The notes beneath the pieces are model-generated. The model worked only from the letters and a program-made list of their open reading frames with translations, ran no database searches and was not told where the DNA came from. A program made the position numbers and the translations under genes. 64,000 nt of DNA from Vampirovibrio chlorellavorus (GTDB taxonomy: Bacteria > Cyanobacteriota > Vampirovibrionia > Vampirovibrionales > Vampirovibrionaceae), in NCBI GenBank assembly GCA_903866275.1, contig CAIPMU010000014.1, positions 62,001-126,000 on the forward strand. The letters run 5' to 3'. Positions 24,111 to 55,914 of this stretch are shown here, piece after piece. Each line of letters starts with the position of its first letter. The stretch's first letter is position 1.

Positions 24111-24171
24111 GGATGGCATTCGGGGTCGTAAAAAACTATAATGATGTTGTCGAGAAAGAGGAGCGGTGACT

Positions 24172-24624
24172 ATGAAACTACTCGCTAACGGACGCAATAT
24201 CGAGTTGACCGAGCCCATTAAGGACTACGTGACCGAGAAAGTCGGTCGGCTTGAGCATCACTATGACTTTTTGCAAGAGATTCACGTGTTTTTGGGTGTC
24301 GAAAAGAACCCCCGGATCAGTGAAAATCAGCTTGCGGAAGCAACCGTCGTGGTGCCTCGTGCGGTGTTGCGTGTGGAAGTCTCCTCAACAGACCTGTATG
24401 CCAGCATTGATAAACTGGTGGATAAGATCGAACGCGTGTTGACCCGCCATAAAACCAAGCTGCTGGGTCGCGCCAAATCCGCCAAAGGCGAATCTATCCG
24501 CAAATCCGGTGCCGAGGAAGAGGCGGTTGCCGAGTTGACGGCTGAAGAGATGGAAGGGGTCTTCCTGACCTATGAAGATGAGGAAGAAACCCAAATCACC
24601 TCGGAAGGCTACCGGGCTAATTAA
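24172..24624 (+). CDS. hpf: Ribosome hibernation-promoting factor, short form
   Basis: 150 residues with the HPF/YfiA beta-alpha-beta core (GRNIELTEPIKDYVTEKVGRL; later DLYASIDKLVDKIERVLTRHK). The ~45-residue acidic tail lacks the conserved dimerisation domain of long HPF, so 100S formation in the long-HPF manner is not expected. ATG 24172 is preferred to the GTG two codons earlier because of the AGAGGAG upstream. It follows enolase after 61 nt. Confidence 0.88.
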   Translation: MKLLANGRNIELTEPIKDYVTEKVGRLEHHYDFLQEIHVFLGVEKNPRISENQLAEATVVVPRAVLRVEVSSTDLYASIDKLVDKIERVLTRHKTKLLGRAKSAKGESIRKSGAEEEAVAELTAEEMEGVFLTYEDEEETQITSEGYRAN

Positions 24625-34055: not shown

Positions 34056-34283
34056 TCATGAAAAAAGAGGGTTAAGATGCCTCGTAATGGCATAGCTTCG
34101 CATGGGCGCTTCTACAGCGCTGTTCGTTAATTCGCAAACCTGCCAAGGGGTTCATCGACCCGATACTGATCCATGTCCACAACCATAACGAGTCAGAAAA
34201 TCCATTTTGAACTTATTTTTGAATGCATCTATAAATCGAACCACTTCATCAGGAAACTCAAACCTTGAGAGGAGAATTTTACG

Positions 34284-34463
34284 ATGAGTCGTCCCATGAA
34301 ACGCACCGTTGGAAAAATTGCAGCTCTGGATTTTGCGGCCGGGACCTATAATACACGCTCACTCAAGCGGGAACGCTACAGCCAGCACGATTTTCTGGAA
34401 TACCTGAATGCCCTGGAAACCATCGATTTTGGTATGCCTTTCGAAGAGGACAGCCAGTCTTAA
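34284..34463 (+). CDS. Small uncharacterised protein, 59 residues
   Basis: A complete frame from ATG 34284 to TAA 34461-34463 with a strong Shine-Dalgarno (GAGAGGAG, about nine bases upstream). The product is basic at the start (MSRPMKRTVGKIAALDFAAG) and acidic at the end (FEEDSQS), without membrane segments or Cys. I do not recognise it. It follows a ~270-nt leader with an extended -10 promoter and is closed by a hairpin at 34498-34525, so it looks like its own transcription unit. Confidence 0.6.
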   Translation: MSRPMKRTVGKIAALDFAAGTYNTRSLKRERYSQHDFLEYLNALETIDFGMPFEEDSQS

Positions 34464-36671: not shown

Positions 36672-37427
36672 ATGAACGAGAGACTTCAAGCCTTGAAAGC
36701 GGCCCTTCAGGCCCGCCGTGCCGTTAAAGTGATTGCCGGTATCGCAAATTTTGATCTGGAAAACGTGCTGCAAGTGGTTCGTGCTGCTGAAGTGGCCGGT
36801 GCCCATGCGGTGGATGTGGCTGCCCGCCCTGACATCGTGAAAGCTGTTCGCGAAGTGACTTCTGCGGCCATTTTTGCGTCCTCGGTAGAGCCAACAGAAC
36901 TGGCTGCCGCTGTGGCTGCTGGCGCCGATGTCGCTGAGTTGGGTAACTTCGATGCCCTTTACGATCAAGGGTTGTTCCTGAGTGCGGACGCTGTCCTGAA
37001 ACTGGCCGCAGAGACTGTGGCCCTCGTGAAAGGAAACGCCTTGGTATCCATCACCATTCCGGGTCACCTGACTCTGGAAAGCCAGATTCAAATGGCTGCT
37101 CAACTGGAAGCGATGGGCGTGGATCTGATTCAAACTGAAGGCGCTGCCCGCGTACTGTCCAGTGAGCCCACCGTGAAATCTTTGGCTCCTGCTGAAAAAG
37201 AGGCCCTGACCTTGCACAATACCCGTGCCTTGGTGCAGGCCACGACCTTGCCGGTAATGACCGCCAGTGGCATGACCGCTGATAACGTTGCTCTGGCGTT
37301 TGAAGCCGGTGCCGCCGCAGTGGGCGTGGGTTCCTTTATTAATAAAGCCCAAACCGAAGCGAAAATGAGCGAGCGTGCCGTGGCGGTCATGGCCAACCGT
37401 GTCCGTGAGATTCGTCAAGCCTCTTAA
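36672..37427 (+). CDS. ycf23: Ycf23/DUF561 family protein
   Basis: 251 residues of the TIM-barrel-like DUF561 family known as Ycf23 in cyanobacteria and red-algal plastids: RRAVKVIAGIANFDLENV, AHAVDVAARPDIVKAVR, ASSVEPTELAAAVAAGADVAELGNFDALY and VMTASGMTADNVALAFEAGA. Function is not established. TTGGAGAAA lies before the ATG. The gene is one of the better signs that the organism is related to cyanobacteria. Confidence 0.88.
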   Translation: MNERLQALKAALQARRAVKVIAGIANFDLENVLQVVRAAEVAGAHAVDVAARPDIVKAVREVTSAAIFASSVEPTELAAAVAAGADVAELGNFDALYDQGLFLSADAVLKLAAETVALVKGNALVSITIPGHLTLESQIQMAAQLEAMGVDLIQTEGAARVLSSEPTVKSLAPAEKEALTLHNTRALVQATTLPVMTASGMTADNVALAFEAGAAAVGVGSFINKAQTEAKMSERAVAVMANRVREIRQAS

Positions 37428-37472
37428 TTGCCTGTCAGTCTGTAATTAGGCTGAATTGTTCAAACTAAAGCG

Positions 37473-37501
37473 GGACTTTTTCCTTTTGGAAAGAGTCCCG
37501 T
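37473..37501 (+). terminator. Hairpin after ycf23
   Basis: CGGGACT-TTTTCC pairs with GGAAAGAGTCCCG; the downstream T tract is short (TTGTGTT). Confidence 0.55.
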
Positions 37502-37663
37502 TGTGTTGAGGGTTTTTTGTCTCAAGCTGGCAATCTCAGGCATTTTACCAATGATAGAATTCTTCTAGCGTTGAAAAAATTGTTTTATTTTGGACGGGTT
37601 GAATGGGGTTATGAGTCTGCTCATTTTAAAAATAGAGTATATACACTGATTCTTTTGTTTTGC

Positions 37664-37669
37664 TATAAT
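37664..37669 (+). promoter_or_regulatory. Extended -10 promoter of a candidate small RNA
   Basis: TTTTGCTATAATTGG contains TGCTATAAT, a consensus extended -10 element. No strong -35 box is present, as is common for this promoter class. Confidence 0.55.
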
Positions 37670-37675
37670 TGGACT

Positions 37676-37782
37676 CGCGAAAGTTAAACAAAACGAACTA
37701 CTCAATTCTCCAGCTTTACCGACGAACACACCTACTACTACACTATGTCATCTCCTCTAATCAGGTAAAGCTGTTTTTCTTT
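37676..37782 (+). ncRNA. Candidate small RNA with anti-Shine-Dalgarno loop
   Basis: The gene-free stretch 37428-38015 contains one clear unit. After the extended -10 box at 37664, a perfect 10-bp stem CAGCTTTACC (37711-37720) / GGTAAAGCTG (37764-37773) is followed by TTTTTCTTT. Its 43-nt loop is G-poor, apparently unstructured, and includes ATCTCCTCTAA, complementary to AGAGGAGAT-type ribosome binding sites. The only short frames inside lack ribosome sites. The rest of the interval to uppS holds nothing I recognise. Confidence 0.5.
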
Positions 37783-38015: not shown

Positions 38016-38762
38016 ATGTCCACCACTTCCACGACAACCCTGAGCGAAATGGCCGAACTGGTGCAAAGTGTCCATTTGCGGCATGTGGCCATTATTATGG
38101 ATGGCAACCGACGTTGGGCCAAAAAGAAGCACATGCCAACCTTGTTGGGCCACAAAAAAGGGGTGGATGCCCTGCGGAATCTGGTGCGCTACAGTCAGGA
38201 TGTCGGGTTGGAAGCCCTCACGGTGTATGCATTTTCCACCGAGAACTGGCAGCGCGGCACTGAGGAAGTGGGCTATCTGATGAAACTGTTTCTGGAGGCT
38301 CTGGCCGGTGAGCTGGAAGCCATGCACCAGAATAATGTTCGCATTCGCTTTATTGGGGATTTAAGTGCTTTCCCCGAAACTTTGCGCAATTTAATGCAAA
38401 CCGCGCACGATAAAACCGCCAATAACACGGGCATTCGCTTCCAGATTGCGGCCAACTATGGCGGACGCCATGAGATCGTCAACAGTATGCGTCAGTTGGG
38501 GCAGGCGATTCAGGCTGGAGAGATGCAGCCGGATGAGATTACCGAAGCGCATGTGCAAGCATTGCTTTACACCCAGGATTTGCCAGATCCGGATCTCTTA
38601 ATTCGCACCGGCGGGGAGTATCGCATCAGTAATTATTTGCTGTGGCAGTGCGCCTATGCGGAATTTTATGTGACGGAAACGCTCTGGCCGGATTTTACCA
38701 TTGAGGCCTTTAATGCGGCCCTGCAAGAATTTGCCCGCCGCGAACGTCGCTACGGGCAATAA
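38016..38762 (+). CDS. uppS: Isoprenyl (undecaprenyl) diphosphate synthase
   Basis: 248 residues, cis-prenyltransferase family. HVAIIMDGNRRWAKKK with the catalytic Asp, FSTENWQR, ANYGGRHEIV and LPDPDLLIRTGGEYRISNYLLWQ are conserved. It makes the C55 lipid carrier for cell wall synthesis. AGAGGG is close to the ATG. The residue 11 Met is a possible alternative start. Confidence 0.96.
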   Translation: MSTTSTTTLSEMAELVQSVHLRHVAIIMDGNRRWAKKKHMPTLLGHKKGVDALRNLVRYSQDVGLEALTVYAFSTENWQRGTEEVGYLMKLFLEALAGELEAMHQNNVRIRFIGDLSAFPETLRNLMQTAHDKTANNTGIRFQIAANYGGRHEIVNSMRQLGQAIQAGEMQPDEITEAHVQALLYTQDLPDPDLLIRTGGEYRISNYLLWQCAYAEFYVTETLWPDFTIEAFNAALQEFARRERRYGQ

Positions 38763-52936: not shown

Positions 52937-54283
52937 ATGTCCGAGCCGGGAAAACCGATATTCAAGCCATTGGACGTTGCGCAAGCAGCGGCCAATCTGG
53001 CTGCGACGGCTTATCCGGGTGCTTATGAGAAAACTGGTACGGTGCAGGAAGCTGTGTCGAGTCAAGTCAGGCCTCCTGCTATCCCTACGCCGGGCTTGCC
53101 ATTTTCTCCGCCGACTTCTGGCCATTTGACGACCCCCGTTTCCCGGCCTGAAACGCCGGAGGTACAGTTATGTTCAATCAATCTGATGCGTGGCATCAGT
53201 CGGGTTGGCACGCAGGAAAACTTGCCGAGGCTGCCAATGTCTCGGGCAACGCTCGTTTCAGCGGTGGCGCACATCTTGGCTCCTTTTGCGCTCATTTTGG
53301 CTGCTCTGGGTGTATTGTGGCTGTTTGCGTTCCTCATGCATCTGAACTTTTGGGATTTTTTCAGGTCAAAGACGCCTCAGGATATGACGTTTACCCTGAC
53401 CGAGAATACCCATGCGCCCAAACCGGAGCATCCGTTGTTCAAGGGCCCGCATAATCAGCAGGCTGGCGGCAAGCAAAATCATCATCAGCCCATTAACCCA
53501 GAGAAGGATCCGGTCTCGGCGCACCCTCAGCCTGCCGCACCCAAGCCCCCGGCTTCAAAGCCTGTGCCCCAGCTACCCCTTGTCAAGCCTGCCAGCAAAT
53601 TGGAGCCTCTTCCCAAAGTGGTACCACCCCCTAAACCTGTCCCGAAGCCTCTTGAGAAACCGGTTGAGCAGCCCAAATCGGAGCCAGTTAAGCTGAAACC
53701 AGTCCAGCCGGTTGCGGTGCAGCCGACGATTGCTCAGCCGATGAAGGTTCAAAAGCCAGAACCCTCGCCACTGAAGTCGCCCGTGCCCCCCGTACCCAAG
53801 GTAGAGCCCGCCAAGCCAGCGTCTAAGCCATTGATGCAGGCGCCCGAGCCGATTCAGGTTTTTTCGCGCACCACGGATTTCGGGCTTTCAACCACGCGGC
53901 CCAGCGGGGCCGTAGCACCCAATCCGCAGGAGGGCAAGGCCGAAGAGGTTGGGGTGGATGTGGCTGAAGATGTTAATTTTGGTCCGTTTATGGCGGATTT
54001 GAAGAAGCGGGTGAACCGAAACTGGATACCCCCTCGGGGAATGGAAAGCCGTAAAGTGGTTGTGATATTCCTGGTGCGTCACGATGGACAGTTGTTGGAT
54101 GTGCAAATCCAGAAAACCTCCGGGGATGCTGAGGCAGATCGCCGGGCCATTGAGGCCATTCAGGTATCGGCTCCCTTTATGGCCTTGCCACCGCAGATCA
54201 AAGAAGACATACTTCCTGTAGAATTCACGTTTGATTATAATGTTCTCAATCCCAAGAATGCCAAACACGCCATGAAATGGTAA
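52937..54283 (+). CDS. TonB-family energy transducer, Pro/Lys-rich
   Basis: 448 residues: ~110 cytoplasmic residues, one membrane segment (~112-140), a long Pro/Lys/Val linker (~160-330) and a TonB C-terminal domain (~348-440; FGPFMADLKKRVNRNWIPP, then VVVIFLVRHDGQLLDVQIQK and SAPFMALP). The long cytoplasmic extension is unusual for TonB. It heads an operon with exbB and two exbD genes (12-, 18- and 0-nt spacing), so these four should form one proton-driven envelope machine. Confidence 0.88.
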   Translation: MSEPGKPIFKPLDVAQAAANLAATAYPGAYEKTGTVQEAVSSQVRPPAIPTPGLPFSPPTSGHLTTPVSRPETPEVQLCSINLMRGISRVGTQENLPRLPMSRATLVSAVAHILAPFALILAALGVLWLFAFLMHLNFWDFFRSKTPQDMTFTLTENTHAPKPEHPLFKGPHNQQAGGKQNHHQPINPEKDPVSAHPQPAAPKPPASKPVPQLPLVKPASKLEPLPKVVPPPKPVPKPLEKPVEQPKSEPVKLKPVQPVAVQPTIAQPMKVQKPEPSPLKSPVPPVPKVEPAKPASKPLMQAPEPIQVFSRTTDFGLSTTRPSGAVAPNPQEGKAEEVGVDVAEDVNFGPFMADLKKRVNRNWIPPRGMESRKVVVIFLVRHDGQLLDVQIQKTSGDAEADRRAIEAIQVSAPFMALPPQIKEDILPVEFTFDYNVLNPKNAKHAMKW

Positions 54284-54295
54284 GAGGAGATTTCC

Positions 54296-54967
54296 ATGGA
54301 ACTCATTCAATATGCAATTATCAACGACTGGGCTGTCCTTTTGCCGATCGTGGCCTGCTCGATTCTCACGGTGGCCGTGGCCATTGAGCGGAAGTTTTTC
54401 TACGATAAAAACAAGCGGGACGTGGTGCAGTTTATCCACCGTCTGCAACGCGAACTGCAACGCGGCAGTCTGGAAAATTCCCAGATGTTGAGCGCCCAGC
54501 TGGGTGGCATCATCGGCGAAGTCTCCGAAGAGGGTATTCGGGTGTTGGCGGAACAACCCGACAGCTTTGAGCGGTCTTATGACATTACCGCCGCGCTAGC
54601 CAGCCGCAAGCTGGAGAAAAACCTGCCCATTCTGGGCACCATCGCCACCATTTCCCCGTATTTGGGTTTGTTTGGTACGGTTGTGCGGATCCTGCTGACC
54701 TTTGGTGAAATGTCGAAAGGCAGCAGTCAGGCGGGTGCTTCGCAGATTATGTTCGGGATTGGTTCCGCACTGATCGCGACCGCCTTCGGTTTGGGCGTGG
54801 CTATTGTTTCGGTGGCCCTGAACAACTATTTCCAGAGTATCGTGAACCGTTACGAAGATGATTTCCAGTTGCTGAAGTTGTTGTTCCTCAGCTTTGCCGA
54901 TGACCGTGAGCATATGGCCACTGCGGGCGCTGCCGAGCGTCGTCCTACCCGCGAACCCGGCTACTAA
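54296..54967 (+). CDS. exbB: ExbB/TolQ/MotA-family proton channel protein
   Basis: 223 residues with membrane segments at ~12-30, ~105-128 and ~150-175. LPILGTIATISPYLGLFGTVVRI, then GIGSALIATAFGLGVAI is the family's core. It forms the pentameric channel that energises TonB. AGAGGAGAT is just before the ATG. Confidence 0.93.
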   Translation: MELIQYAIINDWAVLLPIVACSILTVAVAIERKFFYDKNKRDVVQFIHRLQRELQRGSLENSQMLSAQLGGIIGEVSEEGIRVLAEQPDSFERSYDITAALASRKLEKNLPILGTIATISPYLGLFGTVVRILLTFGEMSKGSSQAGASQIMFGIGSALIATAFGLGVAIVSVALNNYFQSIVNRYEDDFQLLKLLFLSFADDREHMATAGAAERRPTREPGY

Positions 54968-54985
54968 GCCAAAGGAAACCGTTCC

Positions 54986-55495
54986 ATGCAAGCTGCTGGC
55001 CGTAATCACAAGCAGGTCTTCAACGACATCAACATCACGCCGCTGACCGACATCTTTCTGGTGTTGCTGATCATCATGATGGTGGTCGCGCCGATGATGC
55101 AGCAGGTGCGCCAGGACATCAAGCCGCCCTCCTTGAAAACGGGTTCGGCATTGGAGCCCAACAAACTGACCGTGGAAGTGACCGAGAAGGGTGCGTTCTA
55201 TGTGCAGGGGCTGGAAACCAAGCCAGATGACCTGATGGCGACCATGAAAGAGCAGGAAGCCTTGCTGGAGAGAAAATCCAGTGCTGAAAATACCGCAGAA
55301 ACTTCTGCTGGAGATGCTGCCGGTGAGAAGTTGCTGGTGATTCGTGCGGACAAGGCGACTAAAAGCGGTCAGGTACTCAAGGTGTTTGAGGCCGCTCGGG
55401 ATGCCGGGTTTACCAAGGTGACCGTGGCGGGCGAGCCGCTGACGGATGACCGCAAGGCCCAACTGCAGGAAACCAAATCGGAAGGGACACCCTGA
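54986..55495 (+). CDS. exbD: ExbD/TolR-family protein, copy 1
   Basis: 169 residues; NDINITPLTDIFLVLLIIMMVVAPMM carries the membrane helix with the functional Asp (TD). The periplasmic domain has a ~25-residue insertion (LLERKSSAENTAETSAGDA). It overlaps the next exbD by 1 nt (TGATG). Confidence 0.93.
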   Translation: MQAAGRNHKQVFNDINITPLTDIFLVLLIIMMVVAPMMQQVRQDIKPPSLKTGSALEPNKLTVEVTEKGAFYVQGLETKPDDLMATMKEQEALLERKSSAENTAETSAGDAAGEKLLVIRADKATKSGQVLKVFEAARDAGFTKVTVAGEPLTDDRKAQLQETKSEGTP

Positions 55496-55914
55496 TGCGC
55501 GCCGGTGGACGGAAACAGGTCTTTAACGAGATCAACATTACACCTTTGACAGATATTTTTCTGGTGTTGCTGATTATTATGATGGTGGTGGCACCCATGC
55601 TGGACACCAAGGGCCTGAAGGTGGCGGTGCCCTCCGTGGGGCCTGCCTCGGATGTGAAAACCCCACCTAAGACCATTGAGCTGAATATTAGCGCCAGTGG
55701 CCAGTACACCATTGATAGCGAGGAAGTGTCACCGCTGTTTTTGGCCAATAAATTCCGGGAGCTGAAAGGGGAAAAGCCGGACGGCTTAATCATCAAGACC
55801 AACCCGGAAGCACGACATGACGCACTGACCGCCGCGATGGATGCGGCGCAATCGGCCGGAATCACCAAAGTGGCAGTCACTGCGGATGAGGCTGGCGCTT
55901 CTGGCCCGAAATAA
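55495..55914 (+). CDS. ExbD/TolR-family protein, copy 2
   Basis: 139 residues; begins with NEINITPLTDIFLVLLIIMM like copy 1 but without the periplasmic insertion, close to the usual ExbD length. The two differ beyond the helix, so they are diverged duplicates or a heterodimer pair. Confidence 0.93.
   Translation: MRAGGRKQVFNEINITPLTDIFLVLLIIMMVVAPMLDTKGLKVAVPSVGPASDVKTPPKTIELNISASGQYTIDSEEVSPLFLANKFRELKGEKPDGLIIKTNPEARHDALTAAMDAAQSAGITKVAVTADEAGASGPK

Follow-up and report, generated by a model that had tools for sequence, protein, structure and literature searches.

The window, a 64,000-nucleotide stretch of Vampirovibrio chlorellavorus contig CAIPMU010000014.1, contains a small-RNA gene of ~106 nt (37677–37782) situated between a DUF561 gene (36672–37427) and the cell-wall lipid gene uppS (38016–38762), with all of its parts on the plus strand. 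The 5' end is placed by a sharp onset of sequence conservation and the 3' end by a U tract, which lies 233 nt before uppS. An earlier note on this DNA listed an extended -10 box, a perfect 10-bp stem, a 43-nt G-poor loop and a U tract, and all of them are present. The promoter element TGCTATAAT (37661–37669) is separated from the start of the RNA by a 7-nt spacer; there is a weak -35-like TATACA at 37640, but it is not conserved. The RNA begins with a 34-nt A/C-rich leader, GCGAAAGUUAAACAAAACGAACUACUCAAUUCUC (37677–37710), and continues with the 5' arm of the terminator stem, CAGCTTTACC (37711–37720), a 43-nt loop containing three G residues (37721–37763), the 3' arm, GGTAAAGCTG (37764–37773), which is an inverted repeat of the first arm and pairs perfectly with it, and the U tract, TTTTTCTTT (37774–37782). 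Two segments of the loop are of particular relevance: a core, AACACACC (37725–37732), that aligns as AACACAYC in all eight known homologues, and an anti-Shine-Dalgarno-like stretch, GUCAUCUCCUC (37747–37757).

RNA folding predicts the 10-bp stem to be the only helix, with the leader and the loop wholly unpaired. A perfect 10-bp inverted repeat enclosing 20–60 nt directly before five T residues occurs once in the window, versus 0.03 times in Markov-1 random windows; the folding-energy z-score of -1.5 to -1.65 is weak taken alone. A separate strong hairpin, GCGGGACTTTTTCCTTTTGGAAAGAGTCCCGT, at 37460–37515 lies 3' of DUF561 and is probably the terminator of that gene, and similar hairpins follow DUF561 in two other genomes of the family (G007 and G009).

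A DNA search of 97 relatives matched the other four genus genomes strongly, in each case over nearly the exact span from -10 box to U tract; one of these genomes is V. chlorellavorus NCIMB 11383 (contig LAPX01000004.1; G004). The RNA in these genomes is identical to that of the window at 97–101 of 102 positions (95–99%), versus 43–53% identity for the four-fold sites of DUF561, the adjacent gene (protein identity 70–79%). Variation within the genus is distributed unevenly. No column varies in the -10 box (9 columns), the U tract (9) or one of the two stem arms (10); a single column does in the other arm (of 10) and in the leader (of 34), 4 of the 43 loop columns do, and in the spacer all 7 do. 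The earlier note would have abandoned its proposal had the loop varied freely among relatives, and within the genus it does not. Because conservation sets in abruptly after the variable spacer, we infer that the locus is transcribed into an RNA under strong purifying selection and that this RNA starts near 37677, which shifts the transcript length originally suggested (~105 nt) to ~106 nt. These comparative patterns mark the locus as a stand-alone small-RNA gene maintained by strong purifying selection, and since its conservation greatly exceeds that of the genes around it, the RNA probably has an important role.

Diverged homologues are present in three additional genera of the family, represented by G006, G007 and G009. 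The G006 homologue, from a sister genus, was a weaker match in the DNA search, and those of G009 and G007 were added by a covariance model. A second covariance model run on 194 genomes of the class recovered the same eight genomes, with one copy each and E-values of 1e-22 to 1e-10; no homologue was found in the other 186, and hits outside the family reach only E 0.1–0.5 and were treated as chance. A candidate in G010 (E 0.3) with a similar CAAGCTTTACC/GGTAGAGCTT stem was not accepted, having no clear -10 box or common loop. A pattern scan of all genome contigs gave 13 matches; chance alone would account for roughly as many as lie outside the Vampirovibrio family. Rfam 15 at its gathering score reports just three tRNAs in the window, and with relaxed E-values it gives no plausible match in the window, G004, G006, G007 or G009.

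All eight homologues share TGNTATAAT of the -10 element, the stem, the U tract and the AACACAYC core. The stem pairs are kept in all eight sequences and the exchanges are G-U only; compensatory covariation, which had been put forward as a check, was looked for in the eight homologues and none was found. The A/C-rich leader persists in G009 and G007, and starts with a short hairpin in G006, G007 and G009. Within the genus the anti-Shine-Dalgarno motif UCAUCUCCUC does not vary; of the three further genera, one retains it and two have lost it. G006 retains GUCAUCUCCUC although the rest of its loop is rewritten and an internal hairpin has been inserted, and in its predicted fold UCAUCU can form a partial pairing with AGAUGA upstream of it. 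The stretch is lost in G009 and G007, with the G007 loop shrunk to ~20 nt, and because of these losses the anti-Shine-Dalgarno feature is confined to part of the family rather than defining it. The loop character initially proposed for the RNA thus stands for the five genus genomes and G006, but does not define the RNA across the family. G006, G007 and G009 share two elements 5' of the RNA gene, a box TCAAGTTAAnnnTATTAAAA and a second AT-rich stretch, which were not seen in the genus Vampirovibrio (locus L036, minus strand, ~130 nt upstream of the -10 box; L037, 1350–1420; L038, 1350–1410); these are possibly a binding region for a regulator.

We favor the view, to which we assign a probability of about 0.6, that this is the gene of a trans-acting, base-pairing small RNA that is intrinsically terminated and represses translation by means of its terminator loop. 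Its own extended -10 promoter would drive synthesis of a ~106-nt RNA folding into one helix, the terminator stem, and displaying the 43-nt G-poor loop behind the A/C-rich leader. The loop is the proposed target-pairing region, in which the C-rich stretches GUCAUCUCCUC and AACACACCU would pair with purine-rich ribosome sites in a set of mRNAs, and pairing at these sites would block ribosome binding. The joint conservation of promoter, stem, loop and U tract, with a boundary at the presumed start, supports this view, and within the genus the anti-Shine-Dalgarno component is plausible. Counting against it, an Hfq model (PF17209) has no match in the own genome or in 19 relatives, though a Synechococcus control was silent too; a search for a KhpA/B-type protein gave weak sub-cut-off matches only, none of them in the own genome.

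The two loop complements pointed out previously are real. The first, a possible target site AGAGGAGAU, is in the exbB ribosome site (54283–54291, plus strand; loop complement AGAGGAGAT), and the second, AGAGGAGA, is in that of a 59-residue open reading frame (site at 34268–34275, plus strand; frame at 34284–34463). AGAGGAGA is kept at both sites in all five genus genomes, and in 464 kb of the own genome these are the only genes with it at the Shine-Dalgarno position, the usual Shine-Dalgarno sequences there being AAAGGAG/ACAGGAG-like. The exbB site is not conserved in G006, G007 or G009. Summed loop-duplex energies over 136 ortholog pairs of G000 and G003, sampled by stretches that cover parts of the two genomes, rank exbB 5th and the 59-residue frame 9th; of 300 shuffled loops, 12 match the real loop for exbB and 8 for the 59-residue frame. 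The ranking overall is not significant, with 284 of the 300 shuffles reaching or exceeding the best observed of the 136 pairs, and Shine-Dalgarno octamers are conserved anyway in 24 of 119 cases (~20%). Statistical support for both sites is weak, and their ranking does not clearly surpass that of shuffled loops; the earlier note likewise called target prediction weak. Near-exact matches to the complement of either loop stretch, sought in five genomes, fall mostly within reading frames, and no conserved ribosome site was found among the loci examined.

Three more genes have AGAGGAG at the Shine-Dalgarno position: one encodes the ribosome hibernation factor HPF (24172), one is pilin-like and one encodes a chemoreceptor. 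A further match, at a 403-residue RND-transporter frame, is probably an internal start. The HPF gene (window 24120–24621) may be another target of the loop. Its conserved AGAGGAGC ribosome site lies closely behind a TATAAT-like box, and the leader of the G003 HPF gene has AGAGGAG twice. exbB, the 59-residue frame and perhaps the HPF gene are candidate targets to be taken as leads only. The exbB gene is part of a tonB-exbB-exbD-exbD cluster at 52937–55914, and its product scores higher with TolQ models than with ExbB models, yet below both cut-offs. The 59-residue protein is encoded in all five genus genomes, with 58–63% identity in the other four; it has no Pfam or NCBIfam match and was not found in G006, G007 or G009.

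It is also possible, although we consider it unlikely, that the RNA works as a sponge or scaffold, its leader and loop mainly binding a protein or some other small RNA, and that the likeness to an anti-Shine-Dalgarno sequence is incidental. Almost all of the unpaired bases, including those of the leader, are conserved in the genus, which exceeds the need of one short seed; what the whole family shares is the AACACAYC core together with the A/C-rich leader rather than the anti-Shine-Dalgarno stretch; and the mRNA targets lack significance in the ranking. Pairing with Shine-Dalgarno sequences does not explain the strong conservation of the leader, and this keeps such protein or RNA binding alive as an explanation. 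However, a repeated protein-binding motif is not evident, the G-poor composition of the unpaired regions is typical of base-pairing small RNAs, and G006 has kept the anti-Shine-Dalgarno stretch.

The usual 16S tail is UCACCUCCU, and UCAUCUCCU matches it at 8 of 9 positions, although the tail of the own genome may differ. This likeness is all that was found for the ribosome mimic entertained in the earlier note, and a general anti-Shine-Dalgarno decoy or mimic of the 16S tail, damping translation broadly as in dormancy, is improbable. The stretch is lost in two of the four genera, the loop sequence UCUCCUCU is not the best complement of the AAAGGAG/ACAGGAG-like sites that are commoner in the genome, and an RNA encoded in single copy would need to be very abundant.

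Slightly more remote still is a role in cis, as a uppS leader or attenuator or as the 3' end of the DUF561 mRNA. The order DUF561–RNA–uppS, found in the window, G001, G002, G007 and G009, speaks for such a role. In G004, however, the RNA gene is followed by an ankyrin-repeat gene, and in G006 it adjoins neither gene, having an ankyrin-repeat gene on one side and a convergent SDR-type gene on the other (names read from the translations, as for G004), on a different contig from DUF561. Because the neighbours differ in these two genomes the RNA is a gene of its own and not a uppS leader; together with its own conserved promoter and intrinsic terminator and its end well short of uppS, this leaves the cis-element interpretation already disfavoured. 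Least credible of all is a micropeptide gene, since the sole internal ATG frame (ATGTCATCTCCTCTAATCAGGTAA, 7 codons, MSSPLIR/W) is open in all five genus genomes within the loop but has no Shine-Dalgarno sequence, is limited to the genus and not kept in G006, has no ATG counterpart in the G007 and G009 loops, and is surrounded by bases that are conserved equally well. Alignment gaps between the genus and the G006 homologue shift every reading frame and the RNA gene is therefore not a protein gene, in agreement with the original observation that it has no protein frame.

The base-pairing small RNA that we favor can be compared with several known systems. Yfr1 and Yfr10 are abundant or conserved small RNAs of cyanobacteria, the sister lineage, and use an unpaired C-rich motif complementary to Shine-Dalgarno sequences to pair with mRNAs; in Yfr10 the motif is in a loop atop a stem (PMC6778093), as is the candidate motif of the Vampirovibrio RNA. 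Yfr1 is 54–69 nt long, with two stem-loops separated by 16–20 unpaired nt and an ultraconserved unpaired ACUCCUCACAC, and has the synteny guaB-yfr1-trxA (PMC2190773). The Vampirovibrio RNA differs in having UCAUCUCCUC and AACACACC as motifs instead of ACUCCUCACAC, in its length of 106 nt (~1.5 to 2 times that of Yfr1), in its one helix with a 43-nt loop, and in being flanked by DUF561 and uppS rather than guaB and trxA. The Yfr1 11-mer is absent from the RNA and not conserved in the family, with zero matches in G001, G002, G004, G005, G006 and G009 and scattered single or double matches in other genomes. With the motif absent and both architecture and synteny different, the RNA is not a member of the Yfr1/Yfr10 group.

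The RepG RNA of Helicobacter pylori uses a C/U-rich terminator loop to pair with mRNA leaders, and its second stem-loop with this site is sufficient (PMC8295292). Use of the terminator loop as the pairing region is what we propose for the Vampirovibrio RNA, although RepG is directed at G-repeats and carries an additional 5' stem-loop, whereas the Vampirovibrio loop measures 43 nt and contains two candidate stretches; a sequence relation is not claimed. Taking RepG-like, trans-acting small RNAs with an anti-Shine-Dalgarno terminator loop as a working class, the stand-alone gene with its own promoter and intrinsic terminator is present, and the unpaired conserved loop complementary to Shine-Dalgarno sequences is found in the genus and G006 and lost in G007 and G009. 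In alphaproteobacteria, the alpha-r14 or 'cuckoo' RNAs and NfeR1 present ultraconserved anti-Shine-Dalgarno motifs in unpaired loops and block translation initiation, NfeR1 independently of Hfq (PMC10746234). Those RNAs have three hairpins, each with CCUCCUCCC, whereas the Vampirovibrio RNA has one loop with UCAUCUCCUC and the family-wide AACACAYC.

We found no description of a small RNA from the Vampirovibrionia, or of small-RNA work on Vampirovibrio, in the literature searched, and we regard the RNA as a new family of a known functional kind, the base-pairing small RNAs. A more speculative and rather doubtful extension is that it is a family-specific hub regulator in algal-predatory bacteria apparently without a classical Hfq, with two C-rich loop seeds under near-absolute conservation, of which the anti-Shine-Dalgarno seed arose or disappeared within the family, with AACACAYC and the leader retained. 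If so, it would provide a dated view of an anti-Shine-Dalgarno small RNA acquiring ribosome-site targeting, with targets possibly in TonB-type envelope energisation (exbB) and ribosome hibernation. The Vampirovibrionia are the non-photosynthetic sister group of cyanobacteria and include an algal predator, and the RNA offers a clear probe with which small-RNA experiments in V. chlorellavorus could begin, as well as a point of comparison for Yfr1 and Yfr10 of the true cyanobacteria.
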